NCBI GenBank assembly: GCA_020344215.1
Contig: CP070815.1
Location: forward strand, 2,925,248 to 2,989,247
Direction of reading: 5' to 3'
DNA: 64,000 nucleotides
Source: Gemmatimonadota bacterium
GTDB lineage: Bacteria; Gemmatimonadota; Gemmatimonadetes; Palauibacterales; KS3-K002
The notes under the pieces are model-generated. The model was not told where the DNA came from and did no database searches. It worked only from the letters and a program-made list of their open reading frames with translations. Positions 767-56,341 of this stretch are shown here, piece by piece; the stretch's first letter is position 1; each line of letters begins with the position of its first letter. Both the position numbers and the translations under genes were made by a program.

Positions 767-1846
767 TCACGGGCGCGTGAGAAAGTAGACGACAGCTACC
801 CCCGCAGCGACGATTATCACCAACCAGAGAATTAGAAAGCGGAGTCGCGGGCGACGCGCCGAGCTCACCCGAACCATTCTCTCCTTGCGTTGCTGGAAGA
901 AAGCGGCCGGCGACGAGAGTGGGGCTGCCGGCGCCGGCTGTCGTCCGGACACGACCTGCGTGTACTCGCTCGGGCCTTCGGTGACGGGTGCTGGAGCTGC
1001 AGCCGGCGGCGCCTCCGCTTCTGCAGAGTCGACTACCTGCGGCTCAGCGCGGTCAATCGCGCCCGGACTATCCGCGGCCTGCGCACTCGCGTCGAGCGCT
1101 TTCAGATAATCGGACGTTGCGTGGTCCAGCAGTTTCGCACTTCCCGGCGGCGCGCCTGTGGCGGCGGGCGTGGCCGGGGTGGCTTCCTTCGCGCCGCTCG
1201 CCGTCCCGAAGATTTCAGTGAACTCGCCGGGTCCCGCCGGCTCTCTTGCCTTCTTATCGAGAGCGGCGTCCGACGGCCCCTTCGCCCGGCTCACGGCGGG
1301 CTTGGCTTCCGATCCCGCGGCCGCTGACTCTGGCTTGTGCAAACGTATCGAGAGCCGCCTTCGCCGCGGCGTTTCCGGCTCGGCGCTCGACCCACGTTCC
1401 CAGGCGAATAGCTTGGCGAATGTGCTGGTCACGAACGATTTCTTCTGCGGCTTCTCGGCGGTGACGGGTTCTTCCTCCGCCTGGCCTTTGAGCGGCGACC
1501 CGAAGAGGCGGGTGAACTCGCCCGGCGCGGCTGGCCCGGTGGCCGAGGGCTCGGGCGGAGCGGCGCGTTTCTCCAGCCACTCTTCCAGAGTGCTGAAGTC
1601 CTCGAGGACCTGCGTCACCACGACCTGAACCCCGTCAACCTCAACGGTCTCGACGATCCTAGCTTTGTCGGCTGGATCCAGCTGTTCGAGGAGCGCCAGG
1701 ACCAGCTGTGCCTCGTCTCCGTGACCGCCGAGGAAATGAACCATCACCGGCGTTCCCTCGGAATCGGCCGCTTCGGAGCTCAGTATTCCGCTCTCGGTTA
1801 GCTGTCTGCCCAGCTCGTACCGCTGGCGGAACTCATCACTTTGCAT
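767..1846 (-). CDS. Tail-anchored kinase N-lobe remnant with GEFTxxFG motifs
   Basis: This 359-residue protein starts with a kinase-like first strand (RYELGRQLTESG). A segment near residues 50-92 (LLEQLDPADKARIVETVEV, then VVTQVLEDFSTLEEWL) resembles N-lobe strands 4-5 and the hinge, and the kinase likeness then stops. A long Pro/Ala/Glu-rich linker follows, with PGEFTRLFG at 108-116, PGEFTEIFG at 206-214 and a weaker PSEYTQVVSG at 292-301. One hydrophobic helix at about 336-355 ends four residues before the C-terminus, so the head should be cytoplasmic. There is no catalytic motif and no zinc ribbon. It is convergent with the preceding N-lobe protein, 31 bases away. I recognise no named family. 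Regularly spaced Thr motifs with a hydrophobic residue at +3 suggest phospho-Thr docking sites, which is inference. Confidence 0.7.
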   Translation of the reverse strand: MQSDEFRQRYELGRQLTESGILSSEAADSEGTPVMVHFLGGHGDEAQLVLALLEQLDPADKARIVETVEVDGVQVVVTQVLEDFSTLEEWLEKRAAPPEPSATGPAAPGEFTRLFGSPLKGQAEEEPVTAEKPQKKSFVTSTFAKLFAWERGSSAEPETPRRRRLSIRLHKPESAAAGSEAKPAVSRAKGPSDAALDKKAREPAGPGEFTEIFGTASGAKEATPATPAATGAPPGSAKLLDHATSDYLKALDASAQAADSPGAIDRAEPQVVDSAEAEAPPAAAPAPVTEGPSEYTQVVSGRQPAPAAPLSSPAAFFQQRKERMVRVSSARRPRLRFLILWLVIIVAAGVAVVYFLTRP

Positions 1847-2334: not shown

Positions 2335-3249
2335 GTGGCGAAATGTCCGGAGTGCAAGGCCGACGTCTACCTGGGTGAACGCTTCTGTGCCGAGTGCGGC
2401 TCGCCGGTCCCGGAGGCGGAAGAAGCCGGGCTGCTCGCAGACCTGCGGGGGGTGACGCTGGGCGAGTACGACATCGTCGGCGGCCTGGGGCGAGGGGGTT
2501 GGGCGTGGTCTTTCTGGCGCACGAGACCGCGCTGGGCCGCAAGGTCGCAATCAAGGTCCTGCTGCCATCCCTTCTCCGGGGCACGGCGGTAGTCGAGCGC
2601 TTTCGCCGGGAGGCGCGGATCGCGGCGTCGCTCCGTCACCGCAACATCACATCGATCTTCGACCTGAAGGAGACGAGCAAGCTGATGTTCTTCGTGATGG
2701 AGTATGTGGAGGGCCGCGCTCTGGAGTCCATTCTGGCCGAGACGGGGGCGCTCGCGGTCCCTGTCGCTCTCGTCGTGCTGCACGACGTTGCTTCGGCGCT
2801 CAGCTATGCCCACCAGCGCAATATCACGCATCGGGATATCAAGCCGGCCAATATCATCATCGATACCGAGGGTATGGCCGTCGTCACCGATTTCGGCGTG
2901 GCCAAGATTGCCGACGCTGAAGGTTTGACGAGCACGGGGTCCGCCGTCGGCTCGCCGCGGTACATGACCCCGGAACAGTGGTCCGGCGAAGCGTCGCACC
3001 TCTCGGACCAGTACTCACTCGGTTGCGCCGCCTATAAGATGTTGAGTGGCGAGGTTCCTTGCGAGGCCGACTCGATCGAGTCGCTGATGAAGAAGCAACT
3101 GTTCGAGGTTCCAGAAGATCTAGCCACCGTACGACCGGACTCCCCGCCCGAGCTGGCCGCTGGTGGACAGGCCGCCCCGAAACGATCAGATTGGAGCATA
3201 CAACCGGGAAACAAGAGCCGCTTTGTCTTGCCGGGCTGCTGCCGTTTAA
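2335..3249 (+). pseudogene. Zinc-ribbon Ser/Thr protein kinase, frameshifted and truncated
   Basis: The first frame (GTG at 2335) gives a zinc ribbon (CPECK, then CAECG) and the start of a kinase domain, GEYDIVGGLGRGG. At the G run 2494-2498 the kinase continues in another frame as LGVVFLAHETALGRKVAIK, so one base appears lost. The second frame holds HRDIKPANIIID, DFGVAK and SPRYMTPEQ, all expected catalytic motifs. Near 3159-3161 homology shifts again: the frame reading LVDRPPRND fits a kinase C-lobe end and stops at 3249. No linker, membrane helix or output domain follows, unlike the kinase encoded at 13566-16445. Decay is the simplest reading, but the first lesion is in a homopolymer and could be an assembly error. 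It lies directly upstream of vgrG. Confidence 0.7.
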
Positions 3250-3480
3250 CGCTAGAGATCGAACGTCAATCGTACTATACGGGGCAGTGGTCGTGCGGGG
3301 CGGCGTTAGGATGGCCGAGGATCGTCAGCGACCTGGGCCGCCAGCGTCAGTGGCTCTTCCTGACGACAGCACTGGGCCGGGGGTTGGGAGACTCCGGGAG
3401 CGCTGCGGATCAAGCCCGCTGGAGACCCAACCCAATCCGGGCAGCGCAAGAAGCCGCACACCCTCAATCTCGAGGCTACG

Positions 3481-5475
3481 ATGGCGGACTACTCCCAGGC
3501 CGATCGCCCGTTTAGAGTGGAAACCGTGCTCGGCCCCGACGTCCTGCTTCTGCAGGGGTTCTCCGGGCAGGAAGGTGTCTCGACCCCGTTCTCGTTCACC
3601 CTCGACCTGGTTTCGGAAGAGGCCTCGGTGTCGGCCAACGATGTGCTACGCACCGCGGCCGTCGTCACCATGGATCTTGCCGGCGGCGAGCAGCGCGTCA
3701 TCCACGGCCTGATCAACCGGTTCGTCCAGCTGGGCCAGTCGGATGAGCTAACCTTCTACCGCGCTGAGATCGTTCCCTGGGTATGGTTCTTATCGCTGTC
3801 AAGCGACTGCAAGATCTTCCAGAACCTGAGCGTCCTCGAGATCGTCGAGCAGGTCTTTAAAGATCAGGGTTACTCCGACTTCGAGATCAAGTGCGTCAGG
3901 AACTACGCGTCGCGCGAGTACTGCGTGCAGTACCGCGAGACGCACCTGAATTTCGTCTCGCGCCTGCTCGAAGAAGAAGGAATCTTCTACTTCTTCCAGC
4001 ACTCGGAATCTAAGCACATCTTGACGCTAGCGGACGACGCCAGTGCCGTGAAGCCCTGTCCGGGTCAATCGAGGGTGCGCATCTCGCCGATGCCGGAGGC
4101 GGCCCCTGAGGAGGACTTTGTAACGGCTTTCGAGCGCGAGCACGCCGCGTACATCGGCACCGTGACCCTCAGGGACTACGACCATCTCCAGCCATCGCTT
4201 CGCCTGGAAAGTTCGGTGTCCGGAGACGGGAGGGAAGAGGTCTACGATTACCCGGGCAACTACACCCAGCTCGACGACGGTGAGCGGCTGGCGCGCCTGC
4301 AGCTAGAGGAGCAGGAGGCGTGGCACGAGATCGTGCGGGGAGAGAGCACGTGTCGCTCGCTGCAGAGCGGCTGCACCTTCGATCTGGAAGAGCACTACCT
4401 GAGAGAAGCCAATCAGACCTACCAACTGCTCCAAGTGCGCCACTCAGCGCGCGCCGGCGACTATCGCTCCTGGGACACGGCAGCTTTTGAATACCGCAAC
4501 GACTTCGTCGCCATCCCGCACAGCGTGCCTTTCCGCCCGCCTCGCACGACCCCGAAGCCGGTAGTTCAGGGCTCACAAAGTGCGCTGGTTGTGGGCAAGG
4601 CCGGCGAGGAGATCTGGGTGGACAAGCATGGGCGAGTGAAGGTCCAGTTCTACTGGGACCGGGACGGTAAGAAGGACGAGAACAGTTCCTGCTGGGTCCG
4701 CGTCTCCAGCGGCTGGGCCGGTAAGGGTTGGGGCGTTATCCAGATTCCGCGGATCGGGCAGGAGGTGATCGTCGATTTCCTTGAAGGTGATCCCGATCGG
4801 CCGATCATCACCGGCCGGGTCTACAATGCCGAGCAGACGCCCCCTTATGACTTGCCCGGCAACCAAACCCAGAGCGGCGTCAAGTCGCGTAGCTCCAAGG
4901 GCGGCGGCACCGACGACTTCAACGAGATCCGCATGGAGGACCTCAAGGGGAGCGAGTTGCTCTACATCCATGCGGAGAAGGATAAGCAGGTCGTCGTCGA
5001 GAATGACCGGATGGAATCGGTTGGACACAACGAGAGCATAAGCATATCCAATGATCGAAGTGAAACCGTTGGCGCCAACGAGTCGATCACCATCGAGAAG
5101 AACAGAACCGAGAGCGTCGGTTCCAACGAGAACATTACCATCGGCGGTAATCGCATCGAATCAGTAAAGAAGAACGAGACGATAGACGTCGGCGAAAACC
5201 GGACCGAAGAAGTCGGCAAGAACGAAAGAGTCGCGATTGGACAAAGTCGTACTCACGATGTCGGAAAGGACGACACTTTGAAGATCGGCAAAGATCTTTT
5301 CATTGACGCCGGAGACAAGATCGTTCTTAAGACAGGGAGTTCCAGCATCTCAATGAAGAAGAATGGTGATATTCAGATCAAGGGGAAGAACATCACTTTG
5401 GAGGGCTCGGGCAAGATAAGGATCAAGGCCTCTTCTGATGTCAATATCAAGGGTAGCAAGGTCACAAACAACTAA
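3481..5475 (+). CDS. vgrG: Type VI secretion tip protein VgrG
   Basis: The 664-residue protein is the T6SS spike, which sits on the Hcp tube and carries effectors. The N-terminal part (about 1-370) is the gp27-like base, recognised by FSFTLDLVS and the YRETHLNFVSRLLEEEGIFY region. The gp5 OB fold follows at about 371-452 (DKHGRVKVQFYWDRDGK, GWGVIQIPRIGQEVIVDF). A run of short beta repeats at 508-603 forms the needle. The protein ends just after the needle, so it has no fused effector domain and should use separate adaptors and cargo. It heads a same-strand cluster, with the DUF2169 gene beginning 7 bases downstream. No strong ribosome binding site is seen ahead of ATG 3481. The 3' part is visibly richer in A and T than its flanks, consistent with a mobile tip module. 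Confidence 0.96.
   Translation: MADYSQADRPFRVETVLGPDVLLLQGFSGQEGVSTPFSFTLDLVSEEASVSANDVLRTAAVVTMDLAGGEQRVIHGLINRFVQLGQSDELTFYRAEIVPWVWFLSLSSDCKIFQNLSVLEIVEQVFKDQGYSDFEIKCVRNYASREYCVQYRETHLNFVSRLLEEEGIFYFFQHSESKHILTLADDASAVKPCPGQSRVRISPMPEAAPEEDFVTAFEREHAAYIGTVTLRDYDHLQPSLRLESSVSGDGREEVYDYPGNYTQLDDGERLARLQLEEQEAWHEIVRGESTCRSLQSGCTFDLEEHYLREANQTYQLLQVRHSARAGDYRSWDTAAFEYRNDFVAIPHSVPFRPPRTTPKPVVQGSQSALVVGKAGEEIWVDKHGRVKVQFYWDRDGKKDENSSCWVRVSSGWAGKGWGVIQIPRIGQEVIVDFLEGDPDRPIITGRVYNAEQTPPYDLPGNQTQSGVKSRSSKGGGTDDFNEIRMEDLKGSELLYIHAEKDKQVVVENDRMESVGHNESISISNDRSETVGANESITIEKNRTESVGSNENITIGGNRIESVKKNETIDVGENRTEEVGKNERVAIGQSRTHDVGKDDTLKIGKDLFIDAGDKIVLKTGSSSISMKKNGDIQIKGKNITLEGSGKIRIKASSDVNIKGSKVTNN
5002..5289 (+). 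repeat. Six 16-residue needle repeats inside vgrG
   Basis: Six consecutive 48-base units encode residues 508-603 with consensus xNRxExVGxNExIxIG. The first reads NDRMESVGHNESISIS and the last QSRTHDVGKDDTLKIG. Such repeats build the triangular beta-prism of gp5-like spikes. The nucleotide copies have diverged, so the repeat is constrained at protein level. Confidence 0.85.
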
Positions 5476-5482
5476 CAGTTAA

Positions 5483-6490
5483 GTGTTACAGCTAACGAAC
5501 GAGACCGCGTTTGAGAGTACAATCTTTCTTAGCCCAAATACGGACGGAATCGACTCCCTGTTCACGGTTGTGAAGGGGACTTTCGCATTGGGCGAGGACC
5601 TGCTGCCCCATGACGAGCAGGTCGCGATTGTACTCGCTGACGAGCATCTGGCTGGCCCCGCTGATAGCAGTATCCGCGTGCCGGGCGATCTGAGTCTCAG
5701 CAAGCCTGCCTGCGATGTCTTGCTCCTCGGCCGCGCCTACGCTCCGCGTGGACGCCCTGCAACCGAGATGGACGTGTCGGTGACCGTCGGCCCGGTAAGC
5801 AAGACCGTTCGGGTCATTGGCGACAGACACTGGGAATCCACCGGCGTAGGCTACGCTCCGTCTTCACCGCTTCCGTTCGAGCGTATGCCGCTGCTATGGG
5901 AGAAGGCCTTCGGCGGCACAGACCGATGCGGCGACGAACTACGCGCCGAGGCGCGTAACATGGCCGGAACCGGCTACAGAGCACCGGACGGAGAGAAGGA
6001 GCTGGACGGCTTGCCGTTGCCAAACCTGGAGGATCCCGAGAACCTCATCAGTTCCTGGAAGCAGACGCCGCCGCCGTCCTGCTTTGCGCCGGTGTCTCCA
6101 CATTGGGAGCCAAGACGCTCCTATGCGGGAACCTACGATGAAGTCTGGCAGCGGGAGCGCGCGCCCTACTTGCCGTTGGACTTCGACTCCCGATTCTTCC
6201 AACTGGCGCCGCCGGGATTGGTGGCTCCTGGTTACCTGCGGGGAGACGAACCCGTGGCGATCCGTGGTGCGACACCCGATGGTCTGCTGCGCTTTGAACT
6301 ACCCGGCGTGAGGCTTTCGGTTACCCATTTCGTCGATAGCACGTCTGAAACCCAGCTCGCGAATCTCGACACTATCCTGATCGAGCCGGATCAGAATCGG
6401 GTCATCCTGGTTTGGCGAGCGGCCTATGAATGCGCTGGTGGAGCCTTGCGCGTGAAGGAAGTCAGAGTGTCCCAGGACGAGGTAGCCTGA
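5483..6490 (+). CDS. DUF2169 family T6SS adaptor
   Basis: The 335-residue product matches DUF2169 proteins in length and sequence: an N-terminal NETAFESTIF strand, a VVKGTFAL strand, LWEKAFGGTD and a late AAPPGL-type region (FQLAPPGLVAPGY). Members act as adaptors or chaperones that help load effectors onto VgrG or PAAR-like tips. The GTG start at 5483 lies 7 bases after the vgrG stop and gives the family's usual N-terminus. The next gene begins 3 bases after its stop, so translational coupling is likely. Its partner here should be the AHH toxin or the DUF4150 tip encoded further down. Confidence 0.88.
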   Translation: MLQLTNETAFESTIFLSPNTDGIDSLFTVVKGTFALGEDLLPHDEQVAIVLADEHLAGPADSSIRVPGDLSLSKPACDVLLLGRAYAPRGRPATEMDVSVTVGPVSKTVRVIGDRHWESTGVGYAPSSPLPFERMPLLWEKAFGGTDRCGDELRAEARNMAGTGYRAPDGEKELDGLPLPNLEDPENLISSWKQTPPPSCFAPVSPHWEPRRSYAGTYDEVWQRERAPYLPLDFDSRFFQLAPPGLVAPGYLRGDEPVAIRGATPDGLLRFELPGVRLSVTHFVDSTSETQLANLDTILIEPDQNRVILVWRAAYECAGGALRVKEVRVSQDEVA

Positions 6491-6493
6491 AGA

Positions 6494-7549
6494 TTGCCTG
6501 ATTCGATTGCGGTCGTTGGGATAGGCATGATTAGCGCAGTTGGCCTGACCGCTAAGGAAACTGCCACATCTGTCAGATCGACCACGATGCGGTTCACTGA
6601 GGCCAGCTTTCTTGACCATCGCTTCGAACCGTTCACCGTTGCGGAAATCCCAGCCGACGGACTACCCCAGCTGGACGATGCAGTTGAGAAGGACGGGCTG
6701 ACAAGCCGCGAAGCTCGCTTATTGCGAATAGGCACCGCGGCCCTGGTGGAGTGCGTCGAGTCCGTTCCCGTTGGCGCTACGCCTCTTGCGCTTATGCTCT
6801 CCCTGCCCGAATTGCAGACCACAGAGCCGCTTGAGCCGATGTCGTTCTTGCGCCGGTTTGAGCAACAGAGCAGAGTCGCAATCGACCTGTCAGCCAGCCA
6901 AGCGACTCATACTGGGAGAGCCGGCGGACTTATCGCTATCGGTAAGGCTATCCAAACGATCGCCAAGGCGCAGGCTGACTTCGTTGTCGCTGGCGGAATC
7001 GACTCCTACTTGGATCCCTACATTCTCGGCACCCTCGACCTAAATCAGCGAATAAACTCGACCGCAAACCTGGACGGTTTCATACCGGGCGAGGCTGCGG
7101 CGTTCCTTCTGCTGGCAAATGCTGCGAAGGCTGAGTCTGCCGGCCTGACTCCGGTCGCTTTCATCAGTGCGGTCGCCGAGGGTTTTGAGGTCGGCCACAT
7201 TGAAAGCGAAGAACCGTATCGAGGTGAGGGGCTGGCCGCCGTTTTTCAGAAACTGACCGAGGCCGGTGCGGCACCAGCAATCAGCGATGTCTACTCATCC
7301 ATGAATGGCGAGAGCCACTGGGCAAAGGAGTGGGGGGTGGCCTTTCTTCGCACGAGCAGCGCCTTCGCACCGGAACACGGGATGCATCATCCAGCGGACT
7401 GCCTGGGCGACCTTGGCGCGGCCTGCGGCCCCTTAATGGCTGGGCTGGCCGCGCTCGGCATCAGGGACGGTTATAGAGGAAGTCCAACTCTGGTCTACGG
7501 CTCGTCGGATAAGGGTGCGCGAGCGGCTCTCATCTTGCGAGCGGCTTGA
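6494..7549 (+). CDS. Ketosynthase-fold protein lacking the catalytic cysteine
   Basis: The 351-residue protein has a thiolase/beta-ketoacyl synthase fold: IAVVGIGMISAVGLTAKE at the start, FVVAGGIDSYLDPY in the middle, GFIPGEAAAFLLLANA, and DCLGDLGAACGPLMAG near the end. Where active synthases carry the nucleophilic Cys (TACSSGL-like), this one reads HTGRAGGLIAIG, so no acyl transfer by that Cys is possible. It uses a TTG start 3 bases after the DUF2169 stop, strongly suggesting coupling. Such proteins are found next to DUF2169 and PAAR-like genes in T6SS effector clusters; a structural or loading role is inferred. A fatty acid synthesis role is unlikely, since no acyl carrier or reductase gene is nearby. 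Confidence 0.82.
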   Translation: MPDSIAVVGIGMISAVGLTAKETATSVRSTTMRFTEASFLDHRFEPFTVAEIPADGLPQLDDAVEKDGLTSREARLLRIGTAALVECVESVPVGATPLALMLSLPELQTTEPLEPMSFLRRFEQQSRVAIDLSASQATHTGRAGGLIAIGKAIQTIAKAQADFVVAGGIDSYLDPYILGTLDLNQRINSTANLDGFIPGEAAAFLLLANAAKAESAGLTPVAFISAVAEGFEVGHIESEEPYRGEGLAAVFQKLTEAGAAPAISDVYSSMNGESHWAKEWGVAFLRTSSAFAPEHGMHHPADCLGDLGAACGPLMAGLAALGIRDGYRGSPTLVYGSSDKGARAALILRAA

Positions 7550-7595
7550 GAGTCGGCGTGGATCCACTGGACGGAAAACCGGAAAGGGGTAGGGC

Positions 7596-8345
7596 GTGAC
7601 CCAGATCGGTGAGAGCGTCGCAATCATCCCGCCTGGCGGCAAGCAAAAGTGCGTCTTCTGCGAGGAGGGCCACCAGCAGGAGAAGGCTGCCGGGCCGCAC
7701 ACCTTTAATCGGGATATGTCCAAACTGAAGAAGGAAGGACGGGCCTACACTGTATCCAGCGAATACATCGCCCGCTACCCCTCGGCGACCATGCCTCCCC
7801 TCGTTGAATGGCAGCGTGATATAACCGGCGGTTACAAGGCGGCTGCACACCACTGCGTAGCCCTCAAGACCGTGAGCCAACACGCCTTATCGGGTGAGCT
7901 GAACGAAGCCGGATACGACCCGAATGATGGCAGCAATTGCATCTGGCTGCCGTACAGTCGCGCTCAATTCATCCGGGCTCGGGCATGCGGAAAGGCGCTT
8001 CAGAAGCACAGAGGGGGGCATACCAACGAGTACTTCCAAACCGTAGCCAGACACCTCGATGACCTCCAGTCGAACGTAGAGGACAAGTTCTGTCCCGAGA
8101 AGCAGCCAGACAAAGAAACCGTGCTGCGATGGATAAAGATCGAGGAAAGCGACATATGGAATGGGATCGCCAATGTCGTACATGAAGGCTACCACCTCTA
8201 CAATCAGAGTTATCTGAATCCCAACGCGCCCTGGGGCTACTACGAAGAGGAAAGGAACGAGACGGCGCCAGAGGTATTGAATCAAACTATCGATCCTATC
8301 GACGACAAGGCGGCCGAAGAAGAGAGCGCGGAAGATCCTGAGTAA
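7596..8345 (+). CDS. AHH-type nuclease, probable T6SS effector
   Basis: This 249-residue protein carries the AHH (HNH-superfamily) signature: AAHHCVALKTVSQHAL at about residues 82-97, GYDPNDGSNCIWLP after it, and QKHRGGHTNEYF near 136-147, supplying the His residues expected to bind metal and cut nucleic acid. The N-terminus has C19xxC22 in KCVFCEEGH, a possible small metal-binding or docking element. There is no signal peptide, as expected for a T6SS cargo. The C-terminus is acidic. The GTG start at 7596 follows a purine-rich AAAGGGGTAGGG. It lies between the adaptor pair and an Imm11-type gene, the layout of a toxin with its immunity gene. Nuclease activity and DNA as target are inferred from the family. 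Confidence 0.8.
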   Translation: MTQIGESVAIIPPGGKQKCVFCEEGHQQEKAAGPHTFNRDMSKLKKEGRAYTVSSEYIARYPSATMPPLVEWQRDITGGYKAAAHHCVALKTVSQHALSGELNEAGYDPNDGSNCIWLPYSRAQFIRARACGKALQKHRGGHTNEYFQTVARHLDDLQSNVEDKFCPEKQPDKETVLRWIKIEESDIWNGIANVVHEGYHLYNQSYLNPNAPWGYYEEERNETAPEVLNQTIDPIDDKAAEEESAEDPE

Positions 8346-12945: not shown

Positions 12946-13569
12946 ATGGCCCTGCACCGTGCGATGGTGTGTGCTCTGATCCTGCTTCTCGCGCCGTCAA
13001 CGCTGGCGGCCCAGCAGATCACTTACGGCGCCACGATCTTCGGCGGCCTCTTTCTCCCTACCGCCGATCTGGTCGATCAGACTACCGCGGGGGACGTCTA
13101 CCAATACGGGCACAAGACCGGCTGGACGGCCGGCGGGCGCTTCGCGCTTTACATCACGCCTCGATTCGCTGTGGACGGCGAGCTGGTGTATGCGCAGAGC
13201 GATCTTGACGTGAACAACGTGCTCGCTGGCACCCCCAGCGATACGACTGTGGATGCGGGCTTGATCGTTGGCAGCGTCAACGCGGTCTACACCGTGCTCG
13301 ACCCACCGCTCGATCCGCTCGCGGTGTTCGTCTCCGGTGGCCTGGGTCTCGTATACCGCGATTCGGATGACTTGGACAGCCCGACCGACATTGCTGGCGT
13401 CTTAGGGATCGGCTTCCGCTACGGTGTAAGCCCGACGGTGGACATCCGCGTGGACCTGAGGGACTACCTGTCCATGTTCGAGGGGAACATCCCCGAGGCC
13501 GACTCCAAGCTGCAAAACGATCTGTTCGTGACGGCAGGCGTCGAGTTCAGATTCGGCAGAGGGGGTTAG
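12946..13569 (+). CDS. Outer-membrane beta-barrel protein
   Basis: The 207-residue protein has a clear signal peptide (ALILLLAPSTLAAQQ, cut after AAQ or nearby) followed by alternating amphipathic strands (YGATIFGGLFLPT, GGRFALYITPRFAVDGELVY, FVSGGLGLVYRD, GIGFRYGVSPTVDIRVDLRD). It ends in FVTAGVEFRFGRGG, typical of small OmpA/OmpW-like barrels. The frame is open from 12736 but the ATG at 12946 is preceded by ACGGAGGG at good spacing and gives the signal peptide at once, so I use it. No enzyme motif is visible. Its last 4 bases overlap the convergent kinase gene. Confidence 0.82.
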   Translation: MALHRAMVCALILLLAPSTLAAQQITYGATIFGGLFLPTADLVDQTTAGDVYQYGHKTGWTAGGRFALYITPRFAVDGELVYAQSDLDVNNVLAGTPSDTTVDAGLIVGSVNAVYTVLDPPLDPLAVFVSGGLGLVYRDSDDLDSPTDIAGVLGIGFRYGVSPTVDIRVDLRDYLSMFEGNIPEADSKLQNDLFVTAGVEFRFGRGG

Positions 13570-16445
13570 CGGGACTCCAATTTTTGCAGGCGCCAGCCGG
13601 CCGAACCGCGGGCGAAGGTCAGCCGGAATTCGTACCTGACATCCGTGTATTGCTCTCCGGTCCTCCTGAGCCGGAAGTCAAGACTCATCCGTATGTCGGC
13701 AGTGGCCGATGAGTCTTCTACGCGGATGTTCGGTCGCGCGAGCTCGGCCTGCATCTGTTCCGCTCGGCCGAAGAACGTCTGGAGCAGCCGCTCATCATCT
13801 GAAGGTACGCGGCCGCGATAGAGCTCCTCAGCCATGGCCGCCAGGTTCGCCTCCTCGAACAGCTGACGGAAGCGTTCGATCATGTCGGCGAGGACCTCTT
13901 CGGGCAGCGGCTGCGGCTCCGGGTCCGGCTCGGCCGCGACGTCCGCTGCTAGCTGGCGATACGCTGCTTCCACAGCCTCGTAGAACCGCCAGGCGTCCAA
14001 GTACCTGCGGTAGCCGATTAGCGACTGGGCCCGATCACGATCTGCGTCAATGGCGGCCAGCTGATTCGGTCTCCGCTCCGCCGCACCCGCGTCTAGCGCG
14101 CTCTGCCGCTGCTGCGCCGCCCCTAGGCGCGCTGCCTCCGCCTCCGAGCGTGCGAGTTGCGCACACGTCTGGGCGAGCTGCCGGTACGCTGTCACGAGCT
14201 CCGAGAATCTGGTCTGCGCGTCCTGGTAACGCCCCGCGGAGTAAGCACTCTCAGCGCCGCGCATCAGGCTGTTCAGCCGGGCGAGCTCGGTGGGTCGCAA
14301 CTGTTCGGCGCCTGCTGAGTTCGCGGCGCTGCGCTGCTGGCTGGCGCTGGTCCGCTCTGCCGTCGCGGCAGAGCGCAGGTTCTCTCGCTCATTCCTCGCC
14401 ACCTCAGCCAGATCGTTGAAGGCCTGAGGCAGTGGCTCGAGTAACGTCAACGCGCGGAACGGATTCCCAGCCGCTAGCTCGGCCTCGGCTTCCTGGAGCT
14501 GGCGGCTGAGATTCTCGAACCCCGTCGGATCGGTGCCCGCCGCTCCGGCCGCGACCGCAGCGTCTCGGGCCTCGACCGCTTGGCGGCGAGCCGCTTCCGC
14601 CAGCGCTTCTTCGTTTTCCGGTCCAGGCGGCGGCCGGGTCGTGTCTTCACGGACCGGCGCAGGCGGAGGAAAGGGTGCAGGCTCGGGTATCAGCCCGCTG
14701 GGCCTTACCGCGAGCCACAGGGCGAGGAGTGCTACCGCGGCGGCCGGAGCCGTCCACCAGAACCTGCCGACCAGGTAGGGCACACCGGGCGCCGTGACCT
14801 TGACCGCCGCCGCTGCGCTCTCCTCCTCGCAGACCGCCGTAACCTGCACCGAGCCTTCAGCTACCGCGGTCACTAACCCTTCGGGCGAGACATCCGCGAT
14901 CTCCGAGTCGCCCGACGCCCAGCCCACGGGTCGGTCGTGCAATCGCGAGCCGTCGCTCCCGCGAACGATGGCTCTCATCTGCACGGAGTGCCCCACGGCC
15001 ATGACGCGGCGCGATGGCCTCACCCGCACCGCCTCGGCGCGGATTGGTGCTACCTCGATCGCCACCGTTTCGACTCGATCCTCGCACGTGGCGGTGATCG
15101 CTGCGCTGCCCGGCTCGCGCGCCTCGAGGAGCCCGGACTCTGAGACCGAGGCGACCTCGGGGTCGCTCGACTGCCAGGTCACCTCGCGCCCGGCCAGAGG
15201 CTGGCCGGCGGCATCCAGCGGGGTAGCCTGCAGCTGGAGGGTGTGGCCCTCCCAGATCGAGGGCGGCACAGGTGCCAAGAGGAGCGAGTCGACCGGCGCG
15301 GGCGCCTCTGGCACCAGATACTCCGGGATCCCGGCTGCTTCCGGCGGCGTCACCGGCCGTGCCTCCGCTGGAGTGATGGGGCGCGCTTCTGGCGGTGTGG
15401 CGGCGGGCGCGGACCGGTCGACCGCGGGCGCTCGCTGCGCTCCGGACGTGGCGAGCGCGGCGAGTTGCGCTCGAACCGGATCGTCGTGAGCCATAGTTGC
15501 CGGGCCGATCGACCTGATCACGTCCTTCAGGCTTGGCCAGCGGTCGCGCGGGTCCTTCTCCAGCATGCGTTCGACCGCCGCGACCAGCTCGGGTGGCGCG
15601 TGTGGTCGGAACAGAGTGATGGGTCGGGGTGGCTGCTCCACGTGCGCCTTCATGACCTCGAGTGAGGGGCCGGTAAACGGCGGCTCCCCGGTCAGCATCT
15701 CATAGGTCACGATGCCGAGCGAGTACTGGTCGGAGGCTGCGGTGACTTCCTTCGAGGCGCACTGCTCGGGACTCATGTATGCCGGCGTGCCGAGCGTCAT
15801 CCCCGTCTGTGTCAGGTTCGACCTTCTGGGCACCTTGGCGATCCCGAAATCGGTGACGATGGCGTTCCCCTCATCATCCAGCAGGATGTTTGCCGGCTTG
15901 ATGTCCCGGTGGATGACGCCGCGCTTGTGTGCGTAGGCCAGAGCGTCGCCGACTTGCGCCAGCCAAGCTCTGACCACCGACTTCGGCAGTGGACCGTCTC
16001 GCCGAATGACTATCTCCAGCGACGGGCCTGCTATGTGTTTCATGACGAAGAAATGGAGATCGTCCGTTTCTTCGACGGTATAGATAGTGACGATGTTGGG
16101 ATGGTTAAGGGCTGCGACGGTCACCGCCTCCTGGCGGAACCGCTCGATCATTCCCGACTGCAACATGAGGCCCGGCGACATCACCTTGATGGCGACCGTA
16201 CGATCGAGCCTGATCTCACGGCCCAGATAGACGGCGGCCATCCCACCGGCTCCGAGAACCCGCCCGATCTCATACTTGCCGGCCGTCGCGGCGCGCAGCT
16301 TCACGAGGACCGGGTCCCATAGCGATCCGGCCTTCTCCCCTTCCGGCACTGCCACGCCCGGCTCTTGGAGCGCCCCACAGTGGGCGCAGAACCGGTCGCT
16401 CGGGTAGATCTGCCCGCCGCAGTTCGTGCAGTTCGTCGTATTCAT
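13566..16445 (-). CDS. Zinc-ribbon Ser/Thr kinase with two Ig-like domains, membrane helix and NTF2-like tail
   Basis: The 959-residue protein begins with a zinc ribbon (C6xxC9, C20xxC23). A complete kinase domain follows (about 55-315: GAGGMAAVYLG, VAIKVM, HRDIKPANILLD, DFGIAK, TPAYMSPEQ). A linker contains three near-identical TPAEARPVTPPEA-type units. Two Big_2-like Ig domains occupy about 385-548 (EVTWQSSDPEVASVSESG; VGWASGDSEIADVSPEG). One membrane helix lies near 560-585, then a helical repeat region with A-rich coiled segments, and a SnoaL/NTF2-like domain at about 845-959 ending GWRLQKLES. The start is set at ATG 16445, which puts the zinc ribbon at the N-terminus; 17 further in-frame codons upstream look noncoding. 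It should phosphorylate cytoplasmic Ser/Thr and sense something through the periplasmic tail. Placement of Ig domains on the kinase side of the membrane is odd. Confidence 0.9.
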   Translation of the reverse strand: MNTTNCTNCGGQIYPSDRFCAHCGALQEPGVAVPEGEKAGSLWDPVLVKLRAATAGKYEIGRVLGAGGMAAVYLGREIRLDRTVAIKVMSPGLMLQSGMIERFRQEAVTVAALNHPNIVTIYTVEETDDLHFFVMKHIAGPSLEIVIRRDGPLPKSVVRAWLAQVGDALAYAHKRGVIHRDIKPANILLDDEGNAIVTDFGIAKVPRRSNLTQTGMTLGTPAYMSPEQCASKEVTAASDQYSLGIVTYEMLTGEPPFTGPSLEVMKAHVEQPPRPITLFRPHAPPELVAAVERMLEKDPRDRWPSLKDVIRSIGPATMAHDDPVRAQLAALATSGAQRAPAVDRSAPAATPPEARPITPAEARPVTPPEAAGIPEYLVPEAPAPVDSLLLAPVPPSIWEGHTLQLQATPLDAAGQPLAGREVTWQSSDPEVASVSESGLLEAREPGSAAITATCEDRVETVAIEVAPIRAEAVRVRPSRRVMAVGHSVQMRAIVRGSDGSRLHDRPVGWASGDSEIADVSPEGLVTAVAEGSVQVTAVCEEESAAAAVKVTAPGVPYLVGRFWWTAPAAAVALLALWLAVRPSGLIPEPAPFPPPAPVREDTTRPPPGPENEEALAEAARRQAVEARDAAVAAGAAGTDPTGFENLSRQLQEAEAELAAGNPFRALTLLEPLPQAFNDLAEVARNERENLRSAATAERTSASQQRSAANSAGAEQLRPTELARLNSLMRGAESAYSAGRYQDAQTRFSELVTAYRQLAQTCAQLARSEAEAARLGAAQQRQSALDAGAAERRPNQLAAIDADRDRAQSLIGYRRYLDAWRFYEAVEAAYRQLAADVAAEPDPEPQPLPEEVLADMIERFRQLFEEANLAAMAEELYRGRVPSDDERLLQTFFGRAEQMQAELARPNIRVEDSSATADIRMSLDFRLRRTGEQYTDVRYEFRLTFARGSAGWRLQKLESR

Positions 16446-16842
16446 CGATTGCGTGATGAGGCTCGACCAGCCTCGCGAGTCCAGCCGTCGAGGCACGGAG
16501 CAGCGCGGGGAAGCCCTCTGCCGGAAAGTTGGACGCGCGGCAGGAGGTGCGCAACTCCCGCCCTGTCCGCTGGCCGCGGCCGGCGAGCGGCGAGCGGTGT
16601 AAGTGGCACAACGAGAATGGCTTACGGTACGTGAGGCCTCCCGCGCGCTGCCGCGGCCGCCCCGGGCGGGGCTGTGTGCTCCAAGACTGAGGAGACCCGG
16701 CCGCCGCCATCGGTCTCGTCATCGGCAAGAACGCGTAACCGTGTATTGCCGCGAGCGCTGCGGTTCGCCAAGTTGTCCTCGCTCCCTCGCGAGAACAGCT
16801 CGATCGACCAAACCGAATCTGCCCGGACCAACAGGGGGCCGG
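16446..16842. other. Intergenic region between divergent genes
   Basis: About 400 bases separate the minus-strand kinase from the RCC1 lipoprotein gene. Open frames here are GC-rich shadows without recognisable domains. It should contain divergent promoters, but I cannot pick convincing elements. No RNA gene or repeat is evident. Confidence 0.5.
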
Positions 16843-49262: not shown

Positions 49263-49446
49263 GTGCTCGCGGTCGCCACACCGTCCTCGATCCTGTAGCG
49301 CTATGGCTCCTGTGGGGTGATGCGCGCAGCGTTGTTGCGTTCACGTATGGGCGGTCGCATCTTGCAGACCTGTGGGGTAGCCTCCAAAGCCAAGAACGCG
49401 CGGATTGCTGGAACGAGGGCTGGGTCGCCCGCGGTGCGCTGTCTTC

Positions 49447-51507
49447 ATGTCCGATCTCTTTGATCAGTTTCAGACGGAACTAGCCGACCGCTACGCGGTG
49501 GAGGGCGAGATCGGCCGCGGCGGCATGGCGACGGTCTACCTGGCGCAGGATCTGAGGCATGACCGCCGGGTGGCCGTCAAGGTCTTGCTGCCGGAGCTCT
49601 CGACCTCCCTCGGCACCCAGCGGTTCCTGCGCGAGGTCAAGATCGCCGCGGGTCTCCAGCACCCGCACATCTTGCCGATCTACGACTCGGGTGAGGCGGC
49701 CGGTCTGCTTTACTACGTCATGCCATACGTCGAGGGGCAGACGCTCCGCGACCGACTGGAGCGCGAGACCCAGCTGCCGATCGGAGATGCCCTACAGATC
49801 ATACGCGACGTAGCCAATGCCCTGAGCTTCGCTCACAAGCGTGGGATAGTACACCGGGACATCAAGCCCGAGAACATACTCATCTCGGAGGGCTACGCGG
49901 TCGTCGCCGACTTCGGGATCGCGCGGGCGCTCACCGAGGCAGGCGGTGACAAGCTCACACAGACCGGTGTCGCTATCGGTACGCCGGCCTACATGAGCCC
50001 CGAACAGGTGAAGGAGGGCGCGCACGTGGACGGTCGCAGCGACCTCTATAGCTTGGGGTGCGTACTCTACGAGATGTTGGCCGGGCAACCGCCGTTCACC
50101 GGGGCCACCCCCCAAGTAATCATGGCGCGGCATGCCCTCGATCCCGTGCCGCCGCTACGTACGGTCCGCTCGACCGTGCCGGAGTCGGTGGAGTGGGCCG
50201 TCGCCCGGACGCTGGCCAAGGTGCCCGCAGATCGCTTCACCTCCAGCGAAGAGCTCATCCAGGCACTGACCGCGGCAATCGAAGCACCGGGGCTGACCAC
50301 GCCACCGACCGGTGAGTTAGTGCCGTCCTTCTTCTCCGAGCTCAGGCGCCGACGGGTCTATCAGGCCGCTATCCTCTACGTGGCCATTGGCTTCGGGGTC
50401 GTCGAGGCAGCCGACATCACCTTCGAGGTACTCGGGTTCCCAGACTGGATGATGACTCTCGTTGTCATCGGCGCACTCCTCGGCTTCCCTGCCGCCCTGG
50501 TCATGGCCTGGATGTACGACCTGACGAGGCACGGGCTGAGGCGTACTTCGCCCTGGGGACTGACGCCGCCCGACACGTTGCGGACGCGTGGTGTCTCCTT
50601 ACCGCGAGCGGGGCTCGTGTCCCCACCACCCGCGACCATCGACCAAGTGTTCACGGGAACCACGGTCCGCGTCACTCCGGACTTGGACCGGGTCGCCGAG
50701 AGGCCGACGACGCCACTCTACGGCGAGGCTGCTGTTGCTCCGGTGGCCATGAAGGAGCCGTCCCCGCTTCTCACCAGCAAGATCGGACTTACCTCGCTGC
50801 TGGCGTTAGCCTTCTTCGTCAACTGGCTGGAGACGACGCTCGAGACGCGGCTCGGTGCTGATTCGGCCCTCGTCTCTGATCTCAGGCATCATATGGCGTA
50901 CGCAGTCCACTGGTTCGAGGGCCACTTGAGCTTCGAGTATCACGATGTGACGAACAGTATCGCCACGATCGGTTACTCGAGTTCCTATTTCTTCCTCTTC
51001 CCCCTGCTTCTTATCGGAGTTGGCTTGGCGCTCGCCCGCCGGCCCGATATCCGGGCGTATCGTGTGTTCTCGCTCGCCGTGTTGATCGACTACGCGCTGA
51101 GCTTGCCCTTCTTCATCTTCTTCCCGATCCCGGAGCGCTGGGCATATTCGGAGTCGGGCGCCATGCTGCTGTCCGACAAGTGGTCCTCGCAGTTGATCGA
51201 AGCGGTTCGCCCGATCAGCGGGCTCGACAACTGCTTCCCGAGCTTCCACGTGTCGCTCACAGTGGTGGTCGTGCTTCTGGCTCTCTTGTACGGACTACGC
51301 CTGCGATGGAGCATCGTCGCGCTGGGGGCTACGGTTGTTCTCTCGACGTTCGTCCTCGGGATCCACTGGATCGCCGACGTCATCGCCGGCCTAGCGCTCG
51401 GCGTCTTGAGCGTGATGCTGGCGCTTCGTGTGGACAACAGAATCCCCGAGGACGTGTGGCAGTTTGTGGACATCCCGTTCGAGGGCACGGGGCCGGCACC
51501 CGAGTAA
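49447..51507 (+). CDS. Ser/Thr kinase fused to a PAP2/Aur1-like membrane domain
   Basis: The 686-residue protein starts with a complete kinase (about 17-280: GEIGRGGMATVYLAQD, VAVKVLL, HRDIKPENILI, DFGIAR, GTPAYMSPEQ). A two-helix module follows (SELRRRRVYQAAILYVAIG to DLTRHGLRRTS, about 297-375). The C-terminal half (about 440-670) is a multi-helix domain with CFPSFHVS at about 597-604 and GIHWIADVIAG at about 637, matching the PSxH and HxxxD motifs of PAP2/Aur1-type lipid phosphatases or phosphotransferases. Such a fusion would put phosphorylation control and lipid head-group chemistry in one protein. ATG 49447 is used; an upstream in-frame start adds only 14 residues. The PhnD-like gene begins 15 bases after it. 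Confidence 0.9.
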   Translation: MSDLFDQFQTELADRYAVEGEIGRGGMATVYLAQDLRHDRRVAVKVLLPELSTSLGTQRFLREVKIAAGLQHPHILPIYDSGEAAGLLYYVMPYVEGQTLRDRLERETQLPIGDALQIIRDVANALSFAHKRGIVHRDIKPENILISEGYAVVADFGIARALTEAGGDKLTQTGVAIGTPAYMSPEQVKEGAHVDGRSDLYSLGCVLYEMLAGQPPFTGATPQVIMARHALDPVPPLRTVRSTVPESVEWAVARTLAKVPADRFTSSEELIQALTAAIEAPGLTTPPTGELVPSFFSELRRRRVYQAAILYVAIGFGVVEAADITFEVLGFPDWMMTLVVIGALLGFPAALVMAWMYDLTRHGLRRTSPWGLTPPDTLRTRGVSLPRAGLVSPPPATIDQVFTGTTVRVTPDLDRVAERPTTPLYGEAAVAPVAMKEPSPLLTSKIGLTSLLALAFFVNWLETTLETRLGADSALVSDLRHHMAYAVHWFEGHLSFEYHDVTNSIATIGYSSSYFFLFPLLLIGVGLALARRPDIRAYRVFSLAVLIDYALSLPFFIFFPIPERWAYSESGAMLLSDKWSSQLIEAVRPISGLDNCFPSFHVSLTVVVVLLALLYGLRLRWSIVALGATVVLSTFVLGIHWIADVIAGLALGVLSVMLALRVDNRIPEDVWQFVDIPFEGTGPAPE

Positions 51508-54787: not shown

Positions 54788-56341
54788 ATGAGCATACAGC
54801 TGTTGGCCGAGAAACCGGTCTTCTTCACGGCGAGGTCAGCAAGCACCTTCGAGGAAGAGCAGCATGGCCTGCTACTGACCCGGCTGAGGCTGGTGCTGAT
54901 CCTCGGGTTCGTCGTCGCGCTGGCCGCCCAAATATTCTACGGCATCACCGGGCTTGATCCCGAGGTGCAGACCGTCTTTGCACCGTGGATTATCGGCATC
55001 TACGCTCTGTATGTTGTGTCCATCGGTCTGGCGGCGGCGCTGTTGTTTCTCCGTGACTGGCATACTCGTGGCCTTCTGATCATCGACTATGCCGTAATCA
55101 CCTTCAACATCCTCCTATCGCAGTTCATTGCCGTGGCATTCGACCTGAACGAGATCCCCACATTCGCGATCTCGATCTTGCTTTTCGTGCACGCCGCCTT
55201 CATACCCGTCCCGGTCGCCTCGCAGGTGGGGCTGGCTGTGACCGCCGCCCTGGGGTTCCCGTTAATCGCAGGTCTCGGCTACGCACTGATCCCTGAGCTG
55301 CAGGCGTACTGGTCGGCGAACGGAGGGATCGAAGCGTTTCGCGCTCCGGTCATCGAGGGGACGTTTCAGCTCGCGATTATTGCCGCCATCTCCGTCGTCT
55401 TCACCAAGGCACTCTACCACATGCGTCTGACGCTTCACCGGGCGAGACAACTCGGCAGCTACGTGCTCGAGAGAGAACTCGGCAGTGGCGGTATGGGCGA
55501 TGTGTACGTCGCAGAACACGCTCTGATGTGCCGGCCCACTGCTATCAAAGTCCTCAAGGCGCCGGCCGGCGAAGGTGACACATCCCTGGCGCGCTTCGAG
55601 CGTGAAGTTCGCCTGTCGGCGACGCTCACTCACCCGCACACCATCACTATCTACGACTTCGGGCGTACCGGACACGATACGTTCTATTATGCCATGGAGT
55701 ATCTGGAGGGCTTGAGCCTCGAGGAACTGGTGGATCGGTTCGGGCCCGTGCCGCCCGAGCGCACTGCGTTCATCCTGACTCAGGTCTGCGGTTCGCTGGC
55801 CGAAGCTCATGCCAAGAACATCATCCACCGCGACATCAAGCCGTCAAACATCTTCCTTACCCAGCGTGGCCGTCTCTACGATTTCGTGAAGGTCCTCGAC
55901 TTCGGCCTCGCGAAACAGATCACCGCGGACGAGAGCATCACCGCCGTGGGCACCCTGCTCGGCACCCCGCGCTACATCGCCCCCGAGGCGGTCAGTGAGA
56001 TGGGGGCGCTTGACCAGCGGGCCGACCTCTACGGCCTCGGCGGCGTGGCGTACTGGATGCTCACAGGCCGGCCGCCCTTCGACGCGCCCACCGCCGTCGA
56101 GCTAGTAGTTCATCACGTGAAGACGCCCCCGCGAAGGCTGGGCGAGGTCTCCGAGCTCCCCATCCCTCCGAAATTGGAGGCCATCGTGATGAGGTGCCTC
56201 GAAAAGGACCCCCAGGCTCGGTTCGAGAGCGCCGAGGCATTGGAGACCGCCCTCGCCACAGTCCGCTTCGAGAAGCCCTGGACCCACGAGCGGGCCAGGG
56301 AATGGTGGACGCTCCACTTCCCGCCCCAGCCCCCAGGCTAG
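54788..56341 (+). CDS. Ser/Thr kinase with N-terminal multi-helix membrane domain
   Basis: The 517-residue protein begins with about six hydrophobic segments (about 28-212, for example LVLILGFVVALAAQIFYGI, IIGIYALYVVSIGLAAALLF, FQLAIIAAISVVFTKAL). A complete kinase follows (about 225-490: LERELGSGGMGDVYVAEH, AIKVLK, HRDIKPSNIFLT, DFGLAK, TPRYIAPEAV). Kinases with the membrane part first are less common than those with the kinase first, and the membrane part could be the sensor. No strong ribosome binding site precedes ATG 54788. It lies just behind glnA and may read through from it, since no terminator is seen between them. Confidence 0.9.
   Translation: MSIQLLAEKPVFFTARSASTFEEEQHGLLLTRLRLVLILGFVVALAAQIFYGITGLDPEVQTVFAPWIIGIYALYVVSIGLAAALLFLRDWHTRGLLIIDYAVITFNILLSQFIAVAFDLNEIPTFAISILLFVHAAFIPVPVASQVGLAVTAALGFPLIAGLGYALIPELQAYWSANGGIEAFRAPVIEGTFQLAIIAAISVVFTKALYHMRLTLHRARQLGSYVLERELGSGGMGDVYVAEHALMCRPTAIKVLKAPAGEGDTSLARFEREVRLSATLTHPHTITIYDFGRTGHDTFYYAMEYLEGLSLEELVDRFGPVPPERTAFILTQVCGSLAEAHAKNIIHRDIKPSNIFLTQRGRLYDFVKVLDFGLAKQITADESITAVGTLLGTPRYIAPEAVSEMGALDQRADLYGLGGVAYWMLTGRPPFDAPTAVELVVHHVKTPPRRLGEVSELPIPPKLEAIVMRCLEKDPQARFESAEALETALATVRFEKPWTHERAREWWTLHFPPQPPG

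Follow-up and report, generated by a model that had tools for sequence, protein, structure and literature searches.

The gene at positions 767 to 1846 of the window, a 64,000-nucleotide stretch of DNA from a Gemmatimonadota bacterium, raises the question of what a short threonine-centered motif does when it is repeated in a protein that begins like a protein kinase and ends in a membrane helix. A sequence-only reading had described the protein as a tail-anchored N-lobe remnant with spaced GEFTxxFG motifs, had suggested nearby kinases as possible writers and FHA domains as readers of the motif threonine, and had drawn a link to the type VI secretion system (T6SS), a toxin-injection machine, by inference. 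The gene has the following parts:

767–1846, minus strand: whole motif gene (359 aa), an open reading frame with an N-lobe-like head, a motif-bearing disordered linker and a C-terminal tail anchor; head and layout are homologous in ~60 proteins from two phyla
1562–1846, minus strand: head domain, residues 1–95 (AlphaFold2 pLDDT ~95, PDB fold searches, profile match)
1499–1525, minus strand: motif 1, PGEFTRLFG, residues 108–116 (sequence; family motif)
1205–1231, minus strand: motif 2, PGEFTEIFG, residues 206–214 (sequence; family motif)
1070–1138, minus strand: predicted helix, residues 237–259, with TSDYLKALDAS (AlphaFold2 helix; sequence comparison)
944–973, minus strand: motif 3, the juxtamembrane form PSEYTQVVSG, residues 292–301 (closes the array in many homologues)
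776–853, minus strand: C-terminal membrane helix (tail anchor), residues 332–357 (AlphaFold2 helix, pLDDT >90; hydrophobic C-terminal helix in complete homologues)

We employed AlphaFold2 to model the protein as a single chain with a head-only alignment. The linker is predicted mostly at pLDDT <50–55, the motif segments are at low confidence and without defined structure, and the motif starts (residues 108, 206 and 292) are 98 and 86 residues apart, in agreement with the proposed 85–98-residue spacing in a disordered linker. The proposed tail anchor is likewise borne out by the model and by the hydrophobic C-termini of complete homologues. PSEYTQVVSG had been labeled a weaker copy; it is instead a family-wide juxtamembrane form of the motif (consensus P-[SG]-E-[FY]-T-[RQ]-[VIML]-[IVM]), which in many homologues typically lies ~38–50 residues ahead of the membrane helix. 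A second element, TSDYLKALDAS, is common to the paralogue in the same genome as STGEYLRALDAS, and DYLxRL-like forms of this YLxALDAS element (1070–1138) occur in other Gemmatimonadota.

The modeled head has the topology β1-β2-β3-αC-β4-β5-αD, as in the protein-kinase N-lobe. In two PDB fold searches, all 50 matches listed in each were protein kinases aligned on their N-lobes; because the best Z was a middling 8.1, the profile match to MARK kinases (the top PDB sequence matches, including MARK2; residues 8–98, E 0.0026) is useful as independent support. Strand β3 reads VMVH where kinases have VAIK, replacing the lysine with His37; A26, H37 and W90 are invariant in homologue alignment A1, and this histidine is invariant or nearly so across homologues. 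We looked in the window gene for the β3 lysine, HRD, DFG and a C-lobe and found none of them, as past residue ~95 there are only the disordered linker and the membrane helix, and a Pfam search of the gene gave no Pkinase match. The head therefore resembles a protein kinase in topology and in weak profile similarity to kinase N-lobes, but with its histidine and its missing C-lobe it cannot be one, and catalysis is excluded. Decay of a former kinase gene is also ruled out, as the head is conserved across two phyla. The N-lobe-like fold of the sequence-only reading thus stands, while its word 'remnant' does not: the head is a conserved domain.

An N-lobe fold raises the alternative that the head itself is the partner of the FTxxF motifs, in the same chain (cis) or another (trans), and so builds a network at the membrane, by analogy with AGC-kinase N-lobes, which bind hydrophobic motifs. 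The head and the motif array do occur together in nearly all family members. The monomer model, in which the motif segments are at low confidence, speaks against such binding, though modeling one chain from an alignment of the head alone tests this only weakly. We consider self-association of this kind quite unlikely.

We quantified how specific the motif is. In the 4.74-Mb window genome, GEFTxxF has 7 matches, 6 of them in the window gene and a single paralogue, compared to 0 for the reversed control. Across 395 Gemmatimonadota genomes, PGEFTxxF matched in 55, often 2–5 times in one gene, while a control pattern gave 1 match. The linker is ~25% Pro and ~18% Ala, a composition from which repeats might arise as a low-complexity by-product. 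However, composition-matched linker shuffles predict 0.004 strict motifs where the 31 gemmatimonadote homologues have 78, and 0.013 where 27 acidobacterial proteins have 139 (the latter found via the motif and so selected to have one copy or more each), an excess of ~10,000-fold. Of the two outcomes that the sequence-only reading had named as refuting its proposal, a lack of enrichment over such shuffles is thus not what we see, nor is the other, an unconserved threonine, as described below. The motif copies of the window gene and paralogue also differ in codon use, which argues against a recent DNA repeat, and the motif is conserved across two phyla. The shuffles refute chance or low complexity as the origin of the repeats, and its remaining probability is negligible.

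We next determined which genes carry the motif. Of the PGEFTxxF loci, 40 were read, and 31 encode proteins with the same head, including both copies of the window genome. Except for the window copy, their genes adjoin tssK in the T6SS cluster, and most lie between tssK2 and tssK1. A broader scan of 84,980 named genomes, for which the motif was written as a 24-base GC-rich DNA pattern, returned 40 loci, 37 of which are the same type of gene (about two thirds in Acidobacteriota and one third in Gemmatimonadota, some with well above ten motifs). Nearly all 37 have tssK1 and/or tssK2 adjoining, a few flanks being too short to tell. The other 3 are unrelated Sphingomonas proteins (L094, L097 and L119) with one C-terminal motif copy, ending near PGEFTRIFID. 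Gemmatirosa kalamazoonensis is among the Gemmatimonadota with the family gene, and a Gemmatirosa megaplasmid has the sole copy found in a plasmid search.

The association also holds when TssK is the starting point. A strong tssK pair was found in 25 of 80 Gemmatimonadota genomes, which were hand-picked as motif-positive and motif-negative so that this fraction is no population estimate, and the motif gene is present in all 25. The strict motif occurs in 22 of them; in the other 3, from one Gemmatimonadaceae genus, the gene has PGAFTQMF or PGDFTRMF. Genomes lacking tssK have at most isolated, unrelated motif matches, and single matches of this kind, such as CheR/PAS proteins with HPGEFTALFN, were set aside. 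In G001, the one genome of the same genus that was searched, there is neither TssK nor motif, indicating that the T6SS of the window genome is patchy within its genus.

In the window genome, the paralogue (L011:16328–17692, plus strand), 23 kb upstream of the window gene, has five motifs (PGEFTRLF three times, GGEFTKLF and PSEFTRLV) and lies in a complete T6SS cluster, between its tssK genes. The order is tssM, tssL, tssK2 (minus), motif gene (plus), tssK1 (minus), and then tssB, tssC, hcp, tagJ, tssA, tssG and a Clp-type ATPase, identified with Pfam; tssE and tssF were assigned by sequence and position alone. The flanking tssK paralogues (L011:14819–16504 and L011:17747–19102) lie on the opposite strand, and such a pair per cluster is found in the T6SS of both phyla. 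A lipoprotein-like gene follows tssM in many clusters (L011:10027–10605, minus; L060:16403–17341, plus), with a lipobox, then an LYYDxxxGxxDS-like stretch, and no Pfam match, at a position where one might look for a TssJ-type lipoprotein. The window copy itself lies 23 kb from the T6SS core and adjoins vgrG:

3481–5475, plus strand: VgrG (T6SS spike), adjoining the motif gene (Phage_GPD, Phage_base_V and Gp5 domains)

The VgrG, DUF2169, ketoacyl-synthase-like and AHH-nuclease genes are consecutive at 3481–8345, likely a T6SS spike-effector island. Another protein, at 40–735, combines stretches resembling an N-lobe with a zinc ribbon and a membrane helix at its C-terminus, and has no GEFT motif.

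The T6SS link, at first an inference, is strongly supported by this conserved tssK synteny in both phyla, found by the motif search in related genomes that had been proposed as a check. Sequence comparison or modeling establishes the architecture, the motif enrichment, the conservation of the threonine and the dedication to two-tssK T6SS clusters. No NCBIfam or Pfam family covers the gene (Pfam gave only sub-threshold chance matches to TmcA_N and BRK), and in the open-access literature, searched for the motif and for the T6SS of these phyla, we found no paper on the motif or gene. The gene is a T6SS accessory protein of a new kind within a known machine, and its family of membrane-anchored T6SS-cluster proteins, spanning two phyla, is apparently undescribed.

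Based on these observations, we propose that Gemmatimonadota and Acidobacteriota have an accessory protein dedicated to the T6SS, of which the window gene encodes a paralogue. The protein would be anchored by its C-terminus in the inner membrane and otherwise be cytoplasmic, with 1 to ~18 eight-residue docking motifs along its long, disordered tether and the N-lobe-like head at the free end. The motifs would act as multivalent docking sites, holding T6SS components, or an adaptor for these, at the membrane. T6SS-linked Ser/Thr kinases would phosphorylate the invariant threonine, turning docking on or off, and an FHA protein would be the reader, at least for clusters with an FHA gene. The head may both bind and position a kinase or a second copy. 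A T6SS-dedicated multivalent tether is very probable, while phosphorylation of the motif threonine as the switch stands at about an even chance, as does the mechanism as a whole.

The residues of the motif bear directly on the proposed switch. Scoring each position with the other seven fixed to the consensus, P-[GS]-E-F-T-[RQK]-[LMIV]-F, we found Thr in 208 of 209 copies, with 1 Ser. It is the least substitutable position, above acidic E/D at −2 (0.88), R/Q/K at +1 (0.93) and a hydrophobic residue at +2 (0.91), which fits a phosphosite. The threonine with a hydrophobic residue at +3 had been noted for the window gene, and its conservation in homologues proposed as a check; the combination is family-wide, with Phe at +3 in 171 of 209 copies and another large hydrophobic residue in nearly all the remaining ones (0.995 hydrophobic overall). 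Thr rather than Ser, with a constrained +3 residue, is also a feature of FHA ligand motifs. Upstream, position −1 is F/Y in 208 of 208, −3 is G/S (0.995) and −4 is P (0.82). By sequence conservation, the threonine is strictly required in the motif, and the flanking hydrophobic residues likewise. The latter count against a purely phosphorylation-based reading: F−1 and F+3 are conserved like Thr and +2 is mostly hydrophobic, which exceeds what kinase or FHA recognition by itself would need, and in one Gemmatimonadaceae genus many copies have no acidic residue at −2.

We then asked whether writers and readers are encoded nearby. Kinase genes of the window include:

2335–3515, plus strand: zinc-ribbon and Ser/Thr kinase gene adjoining the motif gene, frameshifted near the glycine loop and missing the C-terminal end of the kinase fold (Pkinase E 2.1e-41 on 2394–3515; three-frame translation)
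13566–16496, minus strand: intact kinase gene
49405–51507, plus strand: intact kinase gene
54788–56341, plus strand: intact kinase gene

The proposal that nearby kinases are the writers fared unevenly. The nearest one, being frameshifted, is either a pseudogene or the result of an assembly indel, and would qualify as a candidate writer only in the latter case; beside the core T6SS cluster of the window genome, we saw no kinase. In many other clusters of both phyla, a Ser/Thr kinase gene does lie downstream of tssM, for example at L060:17341–19017. The FHA reader received similarly divided support. Among 24 Gemmatimonadota genomes with the motif, 9 have an FHA gene after the kinase, where the T6SS cluster ends, at a distance of ~9–11 kb from the motif gene, but the motif contig has an FHA match in only ~1 of 19 acidobacterial genomes checked, whose contigs are often short. 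FHA genes are absent near both motif-gene copies of the window genome and near the cluster in most Gemmatimonadaceae and most Acidobacteriota, and two incomplete motif-bearing MAGs had no FHA domain at all. In FHA-linked clusters, position +2 is non-hydrophobic in 11 of 30 motifs, compared to 0 of 46 in other Gemmatimonadota (p 1e-5, without correction for phylogeny), while Thr and F+3 are kept, a sequence pattern which suggests that the FHA protein may read these two residues. An FHA reader in all lineages is improbable.

Because the hydrophobic residues at −1, +2 and +3 are so strongly conserved, constitutive docking is a live rival to the phosphorylation switch. The FTx[LM]F motifs would bind a structural part of the T6SS, most likely a TssK paralogue, without phosphorylation, and the tether would concentrate baseplates at the membrane, in the way that linker proteins with repeats collect cargo. 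Such docking, on TssK or a different part, is favored by the constant tssK neighbors in both phyla, by the amphipathic, FxxLF-like signature of F−1, +2 and F+3, and by the patchy FHA, as the motif persists where FHA is unlinked. Copy numbers varying from 1 to ~18 on disordered spacers (median motif spacing 45 aa in Acidobacteriota) are also consistent with docking. However, Ser, Val and Ala hardly ever stand in for the threonine, a strictness that plain hydrophobic docking does not need, and linkage of kinase genes to tssM recurs. A shared gene neighborhood, in addition, does not prove contact. We regard phosphorylation-independent docking as a reasonable possibility that falls short of probable. 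Phosphothreonine control is favored by the strict threonine, the likeness to the GarA phosphosite peptide, the linked kinases and a known T6SS pathway.

To our knowledge, the T6SS of Acidobacteriota and Gemmatimonadota, which are abundant in soil, has been little studied. The retention of this gene with the tssK pair in two phyla, together with the specificity of its motif (37 of 40 loci), suggests a regulatory or assembly step that is missing from model T6SSs. It is conceivable, and somewhat under an even chance, that the T6SS of both phyla has an extra core component, a tail-anchored, N-lobe-headed tether whose threonine array, phosphorylated at multiple sites, works as a dial, recruiting the baseplate to the membrane and setting firing. 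The family, with its cognate kinases and FHA proteins, is a ready substrate set for asking whether phosphorylation at multiple sites controls a contractile injection machine.

Several known systems resemble parts of the proposed mechanism. The repeat-motif linker scaffolds CsoS2 of carboxysomes and EPYC1 of pyrenoids are, like this family, disordered proteins with many copies of one short motif, whose docking role here is putative; they have no sequence relation to it, and the family is membrane-anchored and tied to the T6SS. Phosphothreonine control of the T6SS is established in other bacteria (PMC3953482). The PpkA-Fha-TssL pathway of Agrobacterium and the PpkA-Fha1 pathway of Pseudomonas share with our clusters a T6SS-linked Ser/Thr kinase, FHA in some clusters, and a conserved threonine in an inner-membrane T6SS-linked protein. 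Here, however, most clusters lack FHA, and the candidate substrate is a tail-anchored protein distinct from TssL and Fha, in which near-identical putative phosphosites form an array. A likeness at the motif itself is the GarA/OdhI phosphosite peptide VETTSVFRADFL of Actinobacteria, a PknG substrate (PMC8546545). GarA/OdhI has one or two sites on the FHA protein itself, whereas the array here is repeated and on an unrelated protein without FHA, yet its ETTSVFR site shares with the motif the acidic −2 residue, Thr at 0 with T over S, a hydrophobic +2 residue and Phe at +3.
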